A stretch of 21,907 nt of DNA from a virus. Below the pieces are notes generated by a model. That model was given only the letters and a program-made list of their open reading frames with translations. It made no database searches and was not told where the DNA came from. Made by a program: the position numbers and the translations under genes. Shown here piece after piece: positions 7,432 through 21,652 of this stretch. The DNA lies in IMG/VR virus record IMGVR_UViG_3300018481_001078, positions 1 to 21,907 of that record; one strand, 5' to 3'. Within the stretch, counting starts at the first letter, position 1; each line of letters begins with the position of its first letter.

Positions 7432-7793
7432 GCTATGAGCCGTGGGGATTTTCATTGCTTCTCAATGCATCTGGTTGTGACCATGATGCATTGACCAGTT
7501 CTGAGATTATTACTAAATTCGTTAAACAATTAGTTGAAGAAATAGATATGGTTGCCTATGGGGAACCACAGATCGTTAATTTTGGAACAGGTAATAAAGC
7601 TGGTTATACACTTGTTCAACTAATTGAAACTTCAAATATCTGTGCCCATTTTGTCAATTCACTTGATGAAATTTATCTTGACGTGTTTTCTTGTAAACCT
7701 TTTAGTCAAGAACATGTTATTGAAGTTTTCAAGGAATATTTCAAACCTACAGATTACACTTGTGAAGTTCTTCCGAGAAAGGCTCCTCGATGA
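7428..7793 (+). CDS. speD: S-adenosylmethionine decarboxylase-like pyruvoyl enzyme (SpeD family)
   Basis: This encodes 121 residues, the length of bacterial class 1b SpeD. SpeD cuts itself at a serine to make a pyruvoyl cofactor, then decarboxylates SAM for spermidine synthesis. Spacing matches the Thermotoga enzyme's active site (S63, H68, C83, from memory): S69 in ETSN, H74 in AHF and C89 in DVFSCK, at the same +5 and +20 intervals. The residue before the serine is T68 instead of the usual glutamate, and the residue after is N70 instead of histidine. Phage SpeD-like proteins I recall share this look. The substrate could be SAM or, as shown for some SpeD relatives, another amino acid such as ornithine or arginine. 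It is coupled by ATGA overlaps on both sides to the heptose genes. Confidence 0.78.
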   Translation: MSYEPWGFSLLLNASGCDHDALTSSEIITKFVKQLVEEIDMVAYGEPQIVNFGTGNKAGYTLVQLIETSNICAHFVNSLDEIYLDVFSCKPFSQEHVIEVFKEYFKPTDYTCEVLPRKAPR

Positions 7794-8398
7794 GCAATTT
7801 TGAAGAATACTTTTGTGATTTTATAGAAGTTGCTGTTAGATTTTATACGTCAGCGGAAAACAAAAACCGATACGATAATGTCATTAGCATTCTAGATAAT
7901 GTCAGACACTTTAACGGAAGAGTGTTTATTATTGGCATGGGTGGTTCTGCTGCCAATGCCCAGCATCTTGCTAATGATTTGCGTAAGATGAACCACATTG
8001 ATGCGACTGCCCTTTCCGACAATATTGCAGAACTTACTGCTCGTGCAAATGACGACGGATTTGAGACCGTTTATTCCAATAGCCTTAAAGTCTCAAATCT
8101 CTGTTTTGCCGATGTTGTTTTTGTACTTTCGGTATCAGGAGGTAACATTGAGAAAAATGCTTCAATAGCCCTTGTCAATGCCCTTAAACTCGCTGAAGAA
8201 CGAAGCGCCCCTATTGTAGGTATCGTCGGAATGAAAGATTCTGTTGCTGCAGATTATAATGAAAACACAATGAACTCAATCATTGTTACTCCGGAAGTTG
8301 CTAAATACGAAACACAGTTTGCAGAAGCAATGCAAGCTGTTGTTTGGCATGGTCTTATTTCTGATCCTCGTTTAATGGTGGTCCCTGCAAAATGGTAG
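7790..8398 (+). CDS. gmhA: SIS-domain sugar isomerase, GmhA-like (sedoheptulose 7-phosphate isomerase)
   Basis: GmhA converts sedoheptulose 7-phosphate to D-glycero-D-manno-heptose 7-phosphate, the first step of heptose activation for LPS and related glycans. This protein has 202 residues, close to the usual 190-200. The SIS fold shows in VFIIGMGGSAANAQHLANDL (about 45-64), LSDNIAELTARANDDGFETVYS (76-96) and VLSVSGGNIEKN (112-123). H59 and H187 fall at the metal-binding histidines of GmhA. The partner residues differ: D63 replaces the usual glutamate, and E179 sits where glutamine is expected. A shifted substrate is therefore possible. It overlaps speD by 4 bases and the nucleotidyltransferase by 7. 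Confidence 0.8.
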   Translation: MSNFEEYFCDFIEVAVRFYTSAENKNRYDNVISILDNVRHFNGRVFIIGMGGSAANAQHLANDLRKMNHIDATALSDNIAELTARANDDGFETVYSNSLKVSNLCFADVVFVLSVSGGNIEKNASIALVNALKLAEERSAPIVGIVGMKDSVAADYNENTMNSIIVTPEVAKYETQFAEAMQAVVWHGLISDPRLMVVPAKW

Positions 8399-8778
8399 CC
8401 GGTTTCATTTGTGGTACTTGGGATTTGTTTCATGCTGGTCATGTTATGGCATTAGAAGAAGCTAGTGATAATTGTGGCCATCTGACTGTTGGTATTCAAG
8501 CAGAAAGTCCTAAACGAAAACCAATCCAAGGTTTATATGAGCGATTTGTCCAAGTAAGTGCATGTAAGTATGTTGATTTCGTGATACCGTATTCTACCGA
8601 AGAAGATTTAGAACAGCTTTTAAAGTCTTATCATATTGATGTTAGATTCCTCGGTGAAGATTACATGATGACGGGTAAAAAAATAACTGCAGAAAAAGCA
8701 GTTCATATTATCTATTTGACAAGAAAACATAACTTTAGTACTACTAAGCTAATTGCCGATATTAGAGGAAAAAAATAA
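8392..8778 (+). CDS. TagD/HldC-type cytidylyltransferase-family nucleotidyltransferase
   Basis: This encodes 128 residues. It contains the nucleotidyltransferase signature GTWDLFHAGH (residues 8-17, equivalent to GxFDxxHxGH) and a C-terminal NFSTTKLI (about 114-121) equivalent to the RTxGISTT motif. Size and motifs match glycerol-3-phosphate cytidylyltransferase (TagD), the HldC heptose-1-phosphate adenylyltransferase and the C-terminal domain of HldE. Between a GmhA-like isomerase and an HddA-like kinase, transfer of a nucleotide to a heptose 1-phosphate is the favoured role. Activation of glycerol phosphate or another alcohol phosphate is the alternative. It overlaps gmhA by 7 bases and the next gene by one (TAATG). 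Confidence 0.8.
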   Translation: MVAGFICGTWDLFHAGHVMALEEASDNCGHLTVGIQAESPKRKPIQGLYERFVQVSACKYVDFVIPYSTEEDLEQLLKSYHIDVRFLGEDYMMTGKKITAEKAVHIIYLTRKHNFSTTKLIADIRGKK

Positions 8779-9782
8779 TGTTCGTTGAAAATGAGATCTC
8801 CGAAAAGGCTTTCGGAGGAACTGAATTGACAAAGCGTGGTCTTGCAAAGCTTATTGATCCTGAATTGCTTTCTAATTTCCAGATCACATGCTCGCGCGTG
8901 AGAAGTCTTGACGAAGATAAGATCAGGGTTTATTGGGTTCATGATCTTCCTAATGATCCAGAGTGTGAAAAGCTCAAGGATGAAAACTTTAGAAATCAAT
9001 TCCATCAAATCGTATTTACTTCTGAATATCAATATGTTATGTTCCGAAATATTCTCGATCTTCAATTTGATGAGCGATATCGCGTTATTGAATCCTGTAT
9101 CGAACCGATTGACTTTGTAGCAAAACCTGATGATAAAATCAATCTGATTTACCACACAACTCCGCATCGTGGACTAGCACTTCTTATTCCAGCTTTTGAT
9201 TATCTTTCAAAACTGCATCCTGAAATTCATCTGCATGTCTTTTCGTCATTCAAGATGTATGGTTGGCCGGATGCTGATGATACCTTTGAACCTCTATTCA
9301 AACAGTGCCGCGAGCATCCCATGATTACTTATCATGAGTTTTCAGGTGCGACTTCTAATGATGAAGTAAGAGAACAACTCCAACAGACTCATATCTTTGC
9401 ATATCCCTGTATTTGGCAAGAAACCTTCTGCCGTTCATTGGTAGAAGCAATGTCTGCATCTGTTGTCTGCGTTCATCCAAATTATGGTGCACTTCCGTTT
9501 ACTTCTGGTGGACTTAGCATCATGTATCCTGGTGATATTAACAACCAGAAACATGTCAATATCTTTGCGAGATATACCGACATTGCTATTAACATGATTA
9601 AGTCGAAGAATGCTGCACTAGATCAAAGACTCGTATTCAATAAGGCATATGTAGATACTCTCTATTCGCAGGGTTATATCGCAAGCAAATGGTCTGCATT
9701 GATGGGTCAATTATTGAAAGCATTTCCAACTGTTGAGTCTAGAAAAATGCCAGGACAGATTTTAACTTTCAAAACCTCATGA
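8778..9782 (+). CDS. Glycosyltransferase, GT4/GT1-like (GT-B fold)
   Basis: This encodes 334 residues. The N-terminal FGGTELTKRGL matches the loop that opens many GT4 enzymes. The C-terminal donor domain shows INLIYHTTPHRGLALLIPAF and the EX7E motif E215-E223 in QETFCRSLVEAMS, followed by a CVHPNYGALPF loop. Such enzymes transfer a sugar from a nucleotide donor to an acceptor glycan, lipid, protein or nucleic acid; the acceptor cannot be read from sequence. Placed between a nucleotidyltransferase and a heptose kinase, it probably uses the heptose made by this cassette. It overlaps both neighbours (1 and 4 bases). No membrane segment or signal is visible, so it is likely cytoplasmic. Confidence 0.85.
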   Translation: MFVENEISEKAFGGTELTKRGLAKLIDPELLSNFQITCSRVRSLDEDKIRVYWVHDLPNDPECEKLKDENFRNQFHQIVFTSEYQYVMFRNILDLQFDERYRVIESCIEPIDFVAKPDDKINLIYHTTPHRGLALLIPAFDYLSKLHPEIHLHVFSSFKMYGWPDADDTFEPLFKQCREHPMITYHEFSGATSNDEVREQLQQTHIFAYPCIWQETFCRSLVEAMSASVVCVHPNYGALPFTSGGLSIMYPGDINNQKHVNIFARYTDIAINMIKSKNAALDQRLVFNKAYVDTLYSQGYIASKWSALMGQLLKAFPTVESRKMPGQILTFKTS

Positions 9783-10762
9783 TTGTAGCATCTACACCTC
9801 TCAGAATATCTTTTTTCGGCGGTGGTTCTGATTTGCCTGCCTTCACGGCAAAAGAAACCGGAGCAACGCTTGCGGTTACTATAAACAAATATGTCCATGT
9901 TATCGTGAAGGAAAACGATAGAAAACTTCGTTTTATCCACGAAGATATATCAGATCTTGATACAATGAGAAACCCTATTGCTGCTGCAATTTTCAAGGCA
10001 TATGGCATTACTGAGGGTTATGATGTTATTTCTCTCTCAGATGTGCCTGCGATTGGTTCGGGATTAGGTGGATCATCTGCTTTTACCATTTCACTTATCC
10101 GTGCATTCAACCAACAATACCTTCTTCCTACAGATGTTGCAAAAATGGCGGTTGAAATTGAAGTAGATAAATGTAACTATCCAATTGGCATTCAAGATCA
10201 ATATGTTATTGCCAAGGGTGGTATGCACCTTTATAAATTCTACAACACCCCACGAGAAGGAGTTATTCAAACTACCTTTAATATCAAATCTGATATGATC
10301 CAAACTCTTGAAAGCAGATTACTGTTAATTCATTCTGGACTCAATCGTCAATCAACGGCTGGAACTATCCTTCAAGAGCAACAAGAAGAAATGAATATTA
10401 ATGAAGAAAAGTTTGCTAGTGTCAGAAGAATTCGCGATCGTGCATTCATGGGAATGGAATTTCTGAATACTGGCAAACTTGATGCTTTCGGAGAACTTCT
10501 TCATATCAATTGGATGGATAAGAAAAAACTTACTAACAGTCTTAGTAATGTACTGTTTGATGATATGTATGAGTTTGCTTTAAATAATGGCGCTATTGGC
10601 GGAAAACTGCTCGGCGCCGGCGGAGGTGGCTTCTTTCTGTTCTATTCACCGACTTCAGAACTTAAACAACTTCTTAGTACCAATCTAAAGGCTAACTTTC
10701 CTAACAGTGCTGAATTCCCATTTAACTTCGTTGGACACTCTACCAAAATCACAAGGATTTAA
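9779..10762 (+). CDS. hddA: GHMP-family kinase, HddA-like (heptose 7-phosphate kinase)
   Basis: HddA phosphorylates D-glycero-D-manno-heptose 7-phosphate at C1. This protein has 327 residues. The N-terminus STPLRISFFGGGSDLPAF (5-22) is the hallmark of the HddA/fucokinase branch of GHMP kinases. PAIGSGLGGSSAF (90-102) is the ATP-binding loop, and GAIGGKLLGAGGGGFFLF (about 278-295) is the third GHMP motif. All motifs look intact, so the enzyme should be active. With the GmhA-like protein it gives two consecutive steps of the heptose pathway. The bisphosphatase step (GmhB) is not encoded here and would come from the host or another phage locus. It starts inside the glycosyltransferase stop (ATGA). 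Confidence 0.85.
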   Translation: MIVASTPLRISFFGGGSDLPAFTAKETGATLAVTINKYVHVIVKENDRKLRFIHEDISDLDTMRNPIAAAIFKAYGITEGYDVISLSDVPAIGSGLGGSSAFTISLIRAFNQQYLLPTDVAKMAVEIEVDKCNYPIGIQDQYVIAKGGMHLYKFYNTPREGVIQTTFNIKSDMIQTLESRLLLIHSGLNRQSTAGTILQEQQEEMNINEEKFASVRRIRDRAFMGMEFLNTGKLDAFGELLHINWMDKKKLTNSLSNVLFDDMYEFALNNGAIGGKLLGAGGGGFFLFYSPTSELKQLLSTNLKANFPNSAEFPFNFVGHSTKITRI

Positions 10763-19211: not shown

Positions 19212-19240
19212 TTGACAAAAGATAGTAACTTTGATAGATT
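19212..19240 (+). promoter_or_regulatory. Probable sigma70-type promoter with exact -35
   Basis: TTGACA (19212-19217) is exact. After 17 bases there is a poor -10, TAGATT (19235-19240), within a GATAGATTAGAT stretch. The predicted start is about 22 bases before the ATG at 19269. The spacing and the repeated use of TTGACA in this genome support a promoter despite the weak -10. Confidence 0.5.
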
Positions 19241-19268
19241 AGATCATTCTCAAATCAAGGGAACAAGC

Positions 19269-20399
19269 ATGGCTCGTAGAAACCTTGCGAAGCGGAAAAA
19301 GAAAACTGTCCGCTTTGGATCTGCTGCATCTGCTCATCTTAATGTCAAATATTACGGTTCTGAAAAACCAATCCCCCAAGGACGTGAAATTACTCAACAG
19401 GAACTAGGTTCCTGTCTGAATTGGTATTCAGCGATGTGTGATGCTTCACATGCTCGTGAATGGCTCTTAGATTATTATGTGGGCATTGGTGAGTCTAAAA
19501 AGGCAGAACTTATTAAACAGATTCCCGATAGTGCACTTCCACTAACGGCTGGTTGGTTAGCAAGGATTACGCTCGAAGGTGGAATCCTTTCAGTTCATTC
19601 TAAAAATTTCATGCGAAAATTGGTTGATAATTCCTTTAAATTTATCAAGGATGCGAATGAGGAAATTGTTAAAAAGCCAAACATCCAAGATCATATGAGG
19701 GAAAAGGTTTCCGAGATGATCGGTGAAATTGAAGGGATGATTGATGACGGATACACCGAAGGATTATATGAATTTCTTAACAATAATGAATTCCCTCCAT
19801 TACTGACAAAGAGAATTGCTGATCATTTTAGACCTCAGGCTGAAGAGGCCAGAGCGGTGATGACCGGTGATGATCCCCAGTTGGTTGAGGGTTATGCATA
19901 CATGTCTAAGAAACAACTGGCTGGTCATTTAAAAATGCTGGATGGGTACATCTCAGACGCTGAGCGCCATGCAACCAATAGTAAAAAACTGAAACCGAGA
20001 GCACCTAGGATTAAGAAACCAGTTCCTCCCGAAAAGCGAGTTAAGAGGTTGAGGTTCCAGAAAGAGGAAATTGCTTTAAAAATTGCATCTGTTCCTCCGA
20101 CACGGATTATCGGTGCCCAGGAATTATGGATGCTCAATACGAAAAACCGACTCCTTACTGTTCTTCGAGCAATTGATCGAGGCGGAATTGATGTAAGAGG
20201 CAACCGATACTTTGGGTTTGATGAAAAGATCTCTGTATCAAAACGAGTCCGTGAAAGTAAAATTGATGAAACACTTTCATTGGTTTTAAAAGGCGGAAAA
20301 GTTGCAAAGAACAAACTCATGGATTCCCTGAAAACTAAACCTGCAGGACTCCAATACCGAGGTAATGAAACAACGGTATTGCTGTATATAGGATTATAA
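19269..20399 (+). CDS. Large basic phage protein, unknown function
   Basis: This encodes 376 residues from ATG 19269, with AAGGGA (19257-19262) 6 bases upstream. A TTG at 19212 is in frame but lies in the -35 element and lacks a ribosome site. The N-terminus MARRNLAKRKKKTVRF and a middle segment (SKKLKPRAPRIKKPVPPEKRVKRLRFQKEE) are very basic; between them is a helical acidic domain (DHMREKVSEMIGEIEGMIDD). The C-terminal 70 residues are basic again. The composition points to nucleic acid binding, and T4-like phages carry similar unnamed proteins. No catalytic motif was found. Confidence 0.7.
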   Translation: MARRNLAKRKKKTVRFGSAASAHLNVKYYGSEKPIPQGREITQQELGSCLNWYSAMCDASHAREWLLDYYVGIGESKKAELIKQIPDSALPLTAGWLARITLEGGILSVHSKNFMRKLVDNSFKFIKDANEEIVKKPNIQDHMREKVSEMIGEIEGMIDDGYTEGLYEFLNNNEFPPLLTKRIADHFRPQAEEARAVMTGDDPQLVEGYAYMSKKQLAGHLKMLDGYISDAERHATNSKKLKPRAPRIKKPVPPEKRVKRLRFQKEEIALKIASVPPTRIIGAQELWMLNTKNRLLTVLRAIDRGGIDVRGNRYFGFDEKISVSKRVRESKIDETLSLVLKGGKVAKNKLMDSLKTKPAGLQYRGNETTVLLYIGL

Positions 20400-20844: not shown

Positions 20845-21111
20845 ATGAAAAAAGCTAAAAAGATACTTCCAAGACAAGGATCAATTCCTATTAAGACGAG
20901 AACCTTCAAGCTGGAACCTCTTCCAGAGAGTCAATGGGTTGCATGTCCTTCTTGCCGTGGAACCGGTTTTATTAAGAATATCGGGGATAATGGTTCAGTA
21001 AAAGGGCAAATGGCATGTCCAGTTGCTACATGTACCGAGGGAACTATTGACAGTAAAATGGTATATTCTGATATTATTCAGCCTAAATTGGTTGACATGC
21101 CGCAAGATTAA
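20845..21111 (+). CDS. Zinc-knuckle (DnaJ-type CxxCxGxG-like) small protein
   Basis: This encodes 88 residues. A basic N-terminus (MKKAKKILPRQGSIPIKTRTFKL) precedes CPSCRGTGFIKN, a DnaJ-like CxxCxGxG motif, and CPVATCTEGTID, a related second half with a four-residue cysteine spacing. The four cysteines could hold one zinc ion. Such single knuckles are common in small phage proteins and bind protein or nucleic acid. It lies 9 bases after the deoxyribosyltransferase gene, and the promoter of the tmRNA gene overlaps its last codons. Confidence 0.75.
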   Translation: MKKAKKILPRQGSIPIKTRTFKLEPLPESQWVACPSCRGTGFIKNIGDNGSVKGQMACPVATCTEGTIDSKMVYSDIIQPKLVDMPQD

Positions 21112-21120
21112 TGTTATAAA
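21092..21120 (+). promoter_or_regulatory. Sigma70-type promoter of the tmRNA gene
   Basis: TTGACA (21092-21097) and TATAAA (21115-21120) have a 17-base spacer. The -35 lies inside the end of the zinc-knuckle gene. The predicted start near 21127 is just upstream of the tmRNA acceptor piece, so the tmRNA can be made independently of the preceding operon. Confidence 0.75.
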
Positions 21121-21122
21121 TA
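21115..21122 (+). promoter_or_regulatory. T4-type late promoter octamer overlapping the -10 of ssrA
   Basis: An exact TATAAATA begins at the first base of the sigma70 -10 element, so the same spot can in principle be read by host RNA polymerase early and by a phage gp55-type late sigma factor. This would keep tmRNA transcription going through infection. The overlap may also be partly coincidental, because both motifs are AT-rich. Confidence 0.45.
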
Positions 21123-21126
21123 TAGG

Positions 21127-21397
21127 ATCAGATGTTGATATTTGTTTGTTGATGTTTTCGGGACCCGGGGGCAGTACCCGGCGCCTCCACCAAAAGTTTA
21201 TCTACTATGGGGGCGACATAGGATCGACTGGAATAGAGACGCAAAAGTAGTCTGATTCGCTGACCAAGTGGTCAAAATAACTGTCGCAGATAACGACAAC
21301 AATAGGGACTATGCCCTCGCGGCATGAGTTACTTGGGTTTTAAGGAACCTAGAAACAGAACTTCTTAAAGCGATGGGGAAGGGAGTAATTTCTTCCC
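21127..21397 (+). ncRNA. ssrA: Permuted two-piece transfer-messenger RNA (tmRNA)
   Basis: tmRNA rescues stalled ribosomes and tags the unfinished protein for proteolysis. Here the acceptor piece comes first: a T arm with stem CCGGG (21165-21169)/CCCGG (21177-21181), a 7-base loop GGCAGTA, then CGCCTCC (21182-21188) and ACCA ending at 21192. After a 16-base spacer the coding piece starts with GGGGGCG at 21209-21215, which pairs with CGCCTCC over 7 bp. The third pair is G-U, the alanyl-tRNA synthetase identity signal. GGATCGACTGG resembles the conserved start of tmRNA. The tag frame is at 21286-21327. This order of pieces is characteristic of alphaproteobacterial ssrA. The outer ends are estimated from the promoter and terminator. 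The conserved CCTAG..AACAG element at 21348-21358 is also as I recall from alpha-tmRNA. Confidence 0.9.
21286..21327 (+). other. tmRNA tag reading frame ADNDNNRDYALAA
   Basis: The resume codon GCA (21286-21288) follows a TAACTGTC context similar to the tmRNA consensus upstream of the resume codon. The frame gives ADNDNNRDYALAA and ends with TGA at 21325-21327. With the alanine carried by the tRNA-like part, the added peptide would be AADNDNNRDYALAA. The hydrophobic end ALAA matches ClpXP/ClpAP recognition signals. The end -YALAA is as in Escherichia coli, while the middle is unlike the alphaproteobacterial tags I recall. Confidence 0.85.
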
Positions 21398-21406
21398 TAT
21401 TTCTTT
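21375..21406 (+). terminator. Intrinsic terminator of the tmRNA gene
   Basis: GGGAAG (21376-21381) pairs with CTTCCC (21392-21397), and the pair may be extended by a G-T closing pair. It is followed by the T-rich TATTTCTTT. Position after the tag and the 3' elements of the coding piece fits the transcript end. The hairpin loop is 10 bases. Confidence 0.65.
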
Positions 21407-21423
21407 AATTAGAAAGAAAAATA

Positions 21424-21651
21424 GTGCGAATATGTATAATACTGTTTATGGCATTAACTTCTGTTCCTGCAACTGCTCAAACATTTAAAGAGAAACTCAG
21501 TTGCACTCCAGATGTCATAAAATTCTGCCATCATTTAAAATTGCAGAAAGATGATCCCGATATTATGACTCAAATTATCTCATGTCTTGTTTCTAATAAA
21601 CAATCATTACGACCATCTTGTCAAGTAGCTTTAACTAAACGAGGTTTTTGA
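21424..21651 (+). CDS. Exported cysteine-rich protein, host-type
   Basis: This encodes 75 residues, initiated at GTG 21424. An N-terminal signal peptide (MRICIILFMALTSVPATAQ) has probable cleavage after AQ or nearby. The mature protein has four cysteines in the pattern CTPDVIKFC, then IISCLVSNKQSLRPSC, matching small periplasmic cysteine-rich proteins I recall from rhizobia, bradyrhizobia and Methylobacterium, where the spacing predicts two disulfides. GAAAG/AGAAA is a poor ribosome site, and the gene starts about 18 bases after the tmRNA terminator, so the promoter is unclear. It may have come from a host. Confidence 0.7.
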   Translation: MRICIILFMALTSVPATAQTFKEKLSCTPDVIKFCHHLKLQKDDPDIMTQIISCLVSNKQSLRPSCQVALTKRGF

Positions 21652-21652
21652 A

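Follow-up and report, generated by a model that had tools for sequence, protein, structure and literature searches.

The window analysed here is a 21,907-nucleotide (nt) stretch of viral DNA, positions 1 to 21,907 of IMG/VR record IMGVR_UViG_3300018481_001078. Near the end of this contig, at 21128-21372 on the plus strand, lies a circularly permuted, two-piece transfer-messenger RNA (tmRNA) gene of the alphaproteobacterial type. An earlier note, made from the letters alone, had proposed a phage-borne gene of this kind, and two Rfam models and ARAGORN uphold it. The alpha-tmRNA covariance-model scan that the note suggested was run with cmscan and places RF01849 (alpha_tmRNA) at 21088-21369 with 90.9 bits (E 7.9e-24; gathering score 50) and RF04321 (tmRNA_permuted) at 21130-21327 with 89.5 bits (E 2.4e-16; gathering score 47). 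Alpha_tmRNA is the best-scoring model of its clan at this locus, the clan handling of cmscan being such that weaker overlapping matches of the same clan are dropped. Independent of cmscan, ARAGORN calls a permuted tmRNA at 21099-21418 and reads its tag as VADNDNNRDYALAA.

The coordinates of the individual features are listed in Table 1. CGCCTCC, ACCA, and GGGGGCG all lie where they had been reported, and CGCCTCC joins GGGGGCG (21209-21215) in a 7-bp acceptor stem whose third pair is the G3-U70 pair; the window tmRNA has both the alanine identity G-U pair and the CCA end in place. The coding piece holds GGGGGCG as the acceptor 5' strand, followed by the D-arm region, the P2 3' strand, the tag, and the pseudoknot. 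In the acceptor piece, the P2 5' strand begins at 21130, and the predicted 5' end of the piece (21128) was placed from the position of the promoter. The spacer between the two pieces measures 8-38 nt in other viral copies. A gene with its own promoter and terminator had also been claimed, and this holds: the -35 and -10 boxes are spaced as TTGACA (21092), 17 nt, TATAAA (21115), and the terminator is a 13-pair hairpin with a folding energy of -19.3 kcal/mol (z = -4.2 relative to shuffled sequences).

Table 1. Features of the permuted tmRNA locus and of one upstream context gene, in window coordinates.
Feature	Position	Strand	Basis and remarks
phrog_11903 gene	19212-20399	+	About 0.7 kb upstream of the tmRNA; context marker outside the RNA
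-35 box TTGACA	21092-21097	+	Exact consensus; within the end of the upstream open reading frame (ORF) 20845-21111
TATAAATA	21115-21122	+	Contains the -10 box TATAAA; matches the late-promoter motif of T4
Acceptor piece	21128-21192	+	P2 5' strand, T arm, acceptor 3' strand, CCA; cmscan alignments, covariation
T arm CCGGG-GGCAGTA-CCCGG	21165-21181	+	cmscan; pairs preserved in viral copies despite changes on both sides
Acceptor stem 3' strand CGCCTCC, then ACCA	21182-21188, 21189-21192	+	Sequence, cmscan
16-nt spacer between CCA and GGGGGCG	21193-21208	+	Removal by processing expected
Coding piece	21209-21372	+	ARAGORN, cmscan; 3' end approximate
Tag frame ADNDNNRDYALAA and stop TGA	21286-21327	+	ARAGORN, sequence; starts at 21283 if GTC resumes
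Post-tag pseudoknot GGGTT/AACCT and TTAAGG/TCTTAA around conserved AACAGAA	21335-21368	+
Intrinsic terminator	21372-21401	+	13-pair stem, then T-rich tail; terminator scan

The structure is maintained across viral copies. The tRNA-like part has 18 predicted pairs across 44 viral relatives, and nine of these, T-arm, P2, and acceptor-stem pairs among them, have changed on both sides yet still pair. An acceptor-stem pair, for example, is seen as C-G, A-U, and G-C, both sides having changed, and the G-U identity pair is invariant. Likewise, 61 of the 62 distinct viral copies retain the second stem of the pseudoknot, relative to a mean of 23.4 when partners were swapped among copies; here the stem was confined to its expected place, a restriction adopted after the outcome of a first test had been seen and on which the 61/62 depends. 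That first test, in which the stem was allowed anywhere, was too permissive and gave no excess.

The tag frame, which the earlier note described as intact, is indeed open, closes with a stop codon, and has a hydrophobic C-terminal end (LAA). The resume codon, described there as equally intact, has two candidates in the same frame: GTC (21283), which is taken by ARAGORN and gives (V)ADNDNNRDYALAA followed by TGA, or GCA (21286), the more usual kind of tmRNA resume codon. GTCGCA is also present in L082, the closest viral relative. An LAA end is shared by 40 of 43 distinct viral tags, and among 71 chromosomal loci the tag ends in LAA in 40 and in VAA in 21. Some viral loci (L035, L041, L064, L073, L045, and L049) have unusually long tags of 28 amino acids, and those of L045 and L049 terminate in ALAASA, not LAA. 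ARAGORN was silent on about 40 pattern-matching viral loci (e.g., L003, L004, and L006); the tag of L004 looks normal by eye, so the program probably overlooks many viral copies.

The promoter sets many viral copies apart from their chromosomal counterparts. Our promoter scan missed the TTGACA/TATAAA pair in the window solely through requiring T as the last -10 base. The TATAAA is part of TATAAATA, the T4 late-promoter element. In the window, this element stands 70 nt before CTCCACCA. Of 100 distinct viral genes, 51 have it upstream, usually at a distance of 66-69 nt from CTCCACCA (range 57-89); none of the 55 chromosomal genes has it at that place, and among background segments its frequency is 1.4%. 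A wider chromosomal set contains one TATAAATA, placed elsewhere, 133 nt upstream. A perfect TTGACA lies 16-18 nt upstream in 26 of 52 TATAAATA occurrences and likewise precedes the element in L082, and several other viral genes feature a separate TATAAT box just ahead of it. Chromosomal genes, in contrast, show a box resembling a -10 element at a distance of about 84 nt, with a leader hairpin after it. The large contigs G001, G003, and G004 have matches to the gp55-type late sigma family, as do phages RHph_I1_18 and Cr30. The late-promoter motif is given as TATAAAT in the paper on phage Melnitz (PMC9004378), and a narrow literature search found no published account of the promoter pattern described here. 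The union of TATAAATA with sigma70 boxes suggests that these genes are transcribed in early as well as late infection. Phage copies may thus have lost the leader and gained a combined early/late promoter, with transcription presumably starting at the 5' end of the acceptor piece.

Permuted tmRNA genes are frequent in viral contigs; a pattern scan of IMG/VR recovered such loci from at least 119 contigs. A tree was built from 68 viral copies and 65 chromosomal copies of Alphaproteobacteria. On it, the viral and chromosomal labels change only three times, relative to a mean of 44.6 for shuffled labels (0 of 500 shuffles as low), although the bootstrap had not converged, support is weak at many forks, the low G+C common to the viral rows may draw them together, and the chromosomal sample is limited and taken from higher-scoring matches. 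The nearest relative of the window copy is the viral L082 (98/97 support; 63% identity), the sole well-supported grouping of the window tmRNA, and the L082 contig has no gene besides the tmRNA in common with the window. Two viral loci, L034 and L101, are placed among chromosomal genes. This distribution points to an old phage-resident lineage, ultimately of alpha type, rather than a recent pick-up, and the tree argues against a recent capture but not against an ancient one. The earlier note had taken the permuted form to imply capture from an alphaproteobacterial host. The ultimate alpha-type origin stands, whereas the implied capture is too strong because the viral and chromosomal sets are separate and the nearest relative is viral. 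We also tried to name a host from the D-arm stretch and rejected the candidates: Phyllobacteriaceae and Finniella-like metagenome-assembled genomes share the D arm but differ in the tag region. In addition, Tunturi_5, a phage of an Acidobacteriota strain, carries a permuted tmRNA, so the RNA form by itself does not name the host.

Phage tmRNA genes are known, as the earlier note had stated. Two-piece tmRNAs are described in the Methylophilales phage Melnitz and in pelagimyophages such as Mosig, and of the 133 distinct phage tmRNA structures in a 2021 phage collection, 53 are two-piece (PMC9004378). RF04321 was introduced with a database that contains 79 phage tmRNA sequences, counting all forms (PMC11915505). 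The window gene is a further example of these already described phage permuted tmRNAs. It scores well above the curated threshold of RF04321 and has no excluding feature. Like the Melnitz and Mosig genes, which reside in T4-like phages, it is a permuted alpha-type ssrA with its own promoter, but the phage, the tag, and the neighbours differ, and the Melnitz ssrA is linked to a glutamine riboswitch while cmscan finds no riboswitch family at threshold in the window. With chromosomal alphaproteobacterial tmRNA (RF01849) it shares the gene order, the G-U acceptor stem, the T arm, the D-arm sequence, and the order of tag and pseudoknot; unlike those genes, it lacks a leader hairpin before P2, its P2 is divergent, its tag is its own, and its promoter element lies closer to the acceptor (70 nt rather than about 84 nt). 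The gene enlarges the known set by a case that is clean and intact. In the sample examined, viral permuted tmRNAs are mostly not recent host captures, and they often have the phage-type promoter motif in common, which opens phage-run ribosome rescue, its timing and its purpose, to testing.

Among the genes around the tmRNA are those for a phage DNA primase, for phage exonucleases, and for a ribonucleotide reductase, each of which matches a phage family. The phrog_11903 gene has a homologue (34% over 388 amino acids) in L063, a 152-kb viral contig, where it occupies the same strand about 0.5 kb upstream of a permuted tmRNA; L063 also encodes a T4 gp55-type late sigma factor. The viral-contig search with the upstream protein confirmed no relative, and L063 emerged later among the pattern loci. 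More distant homologues occur in Caulobacter, Rhizobium, Sinorhizobium, Ochrobactrum, Stenotrophomonas, and Pseudomonas phages. Nucleotide matches to named phages number two, both short and both within permuted tmRNAs, and no permuted tmRNA match was found in Caulobacter phage Cr30, Ochrobactrum phage OC, or Rhizobium phage L338C, which are related in single genes. A search for SmpB in nine phage records, the window contig and eight others, found no gene for it; several of the nine are fragments. Host SmpB would therefore be needed.

Two-piece tmRNA is processed to two RNAs, charged with alanine, and delivered by SmpB, and its tag directs proteins to ClpXP. By this route, a precursor would run from about 21128 to the terminator, probably transcribed early from the sigma70 boxes and also late through the T4-type TATAAATA. 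Host tRNA-processing enzymes would excise the spacer (RNase P cutting at 21209, with 3' trimming at 21192), a dependence on the host that the earlier note had proposed and that is reasonable because the RNA is of the cleaved kind. The acceptor stem and helix P2 would keep the acceptor and coding pieces together. Host alanyl-tRNA synthetase would charge the RNA via the G-U pair, and host SmpB would deliver it to stalled ribosomes, where a tag ending in LAA would route unfinished proteins to ClpXP. The expected benefit to the phage is that ribosomes stalled on broken mRNAs during infection would be released for phage translation.

Overall, the most probable reading of the window gene is a working, permuted ssrA carried by the phage. 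A wider proposal, to which we give somewhat less than even chances, is that T4-like phages keep a branch of permuted tmRNA that is old and adapted to phages. In this proposal the branch has lost the host leader hairpin, its promoter has been replaced by a combined early/late one (TTGACA followed by TATAAATA), ribosome rescue is under phage control throughout infection, and tags are held to LAA. Several observations weigh against these readings. The cmscan alignment of P2 contains non-standard pairs, and a free cofold of the two pieces (-38.3) is barely better than shuffles (-34.4; standard deviation 3.4). The window as a whole contains three copies of TATAAATA, a count within chance, so the case for the promoter rests on the comparison among genes and not on the window copy alone; its TATAAA may be an ordinary -10 box only. 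A gp55-type late sigma factor was not found within the 21.9-kb window fragment. Conversely, G003 encodes one and has a tmRNA without TATAAATA; the link between motif and late sigma factor is therefore not strict.

The divergent P2 could also make a poorer substrate, as would befit a decoy or inhibitor, in competition with the tmRNA or SmpB of the host, that weakens trans-translation or the proteolysis of tagged proteins instead of performing it. Such a role would have no need of the tag frame, stop codon, LAA end, and pseudoknot that viral copies keep, and we regard it as unlikely. Slightly less likely still is a passenger, a host gene recently captured or decaying and with no phage role. It would be in line with the long branch of the window copy (0.38) and with an RF04321 score that falls below most chromosomal genes (the best listed reach about 140-167 bits), a score that likewise weighs against a working phage copy. 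Yet the viral lineages are separate from the chromosomal copies, compensating changes preserve the structure, and a phage-type promoter motif is common to viral copies. Host contamination, in which the contig end would be a piece of bacterial chromosome or a misassembly, is highly improbable: the gene does lie near the contig end, and viral collections include some host-like copies such as L034 and L101, but the phage gene 0.7 kb upstream has its homologue beside a similar tmRNA in the 152-kb contig, and the nearest tmRNA relative is viral.

Additional permuted tmRNAs were encountered in named phages. Tunturiibacter phage Tunturi_5 (L140; PP885688.1 157899-158195) carries an unannotated one (86.4 bits) with a long tag region; it falls short of the threshold of the alpha model, and no gp55-family match was found in this phage. 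Rhodobacter phage RcRudolph (L136; OP009285.1 49133-49421) carries another (103.6 bits), which overlies the "hypothetical protein" gp61 (49133-49468), a likely misannotation. In the window itself, a small ORF read by eye (21424-21652) starts from GTG directly past the tmRNA terminator and features a start resembling a signal peptide and several cysteines. Finally, translations at 7790-10762 indicate, consecutively, a SIS-type isomerase, a nucleotidyltransferase, a glycosyltransferase, and a GHMP-type kinase; the isomerase resembles the phosphoheptose isomerase that adjoins the phrog_11903 homologue in Cr30.
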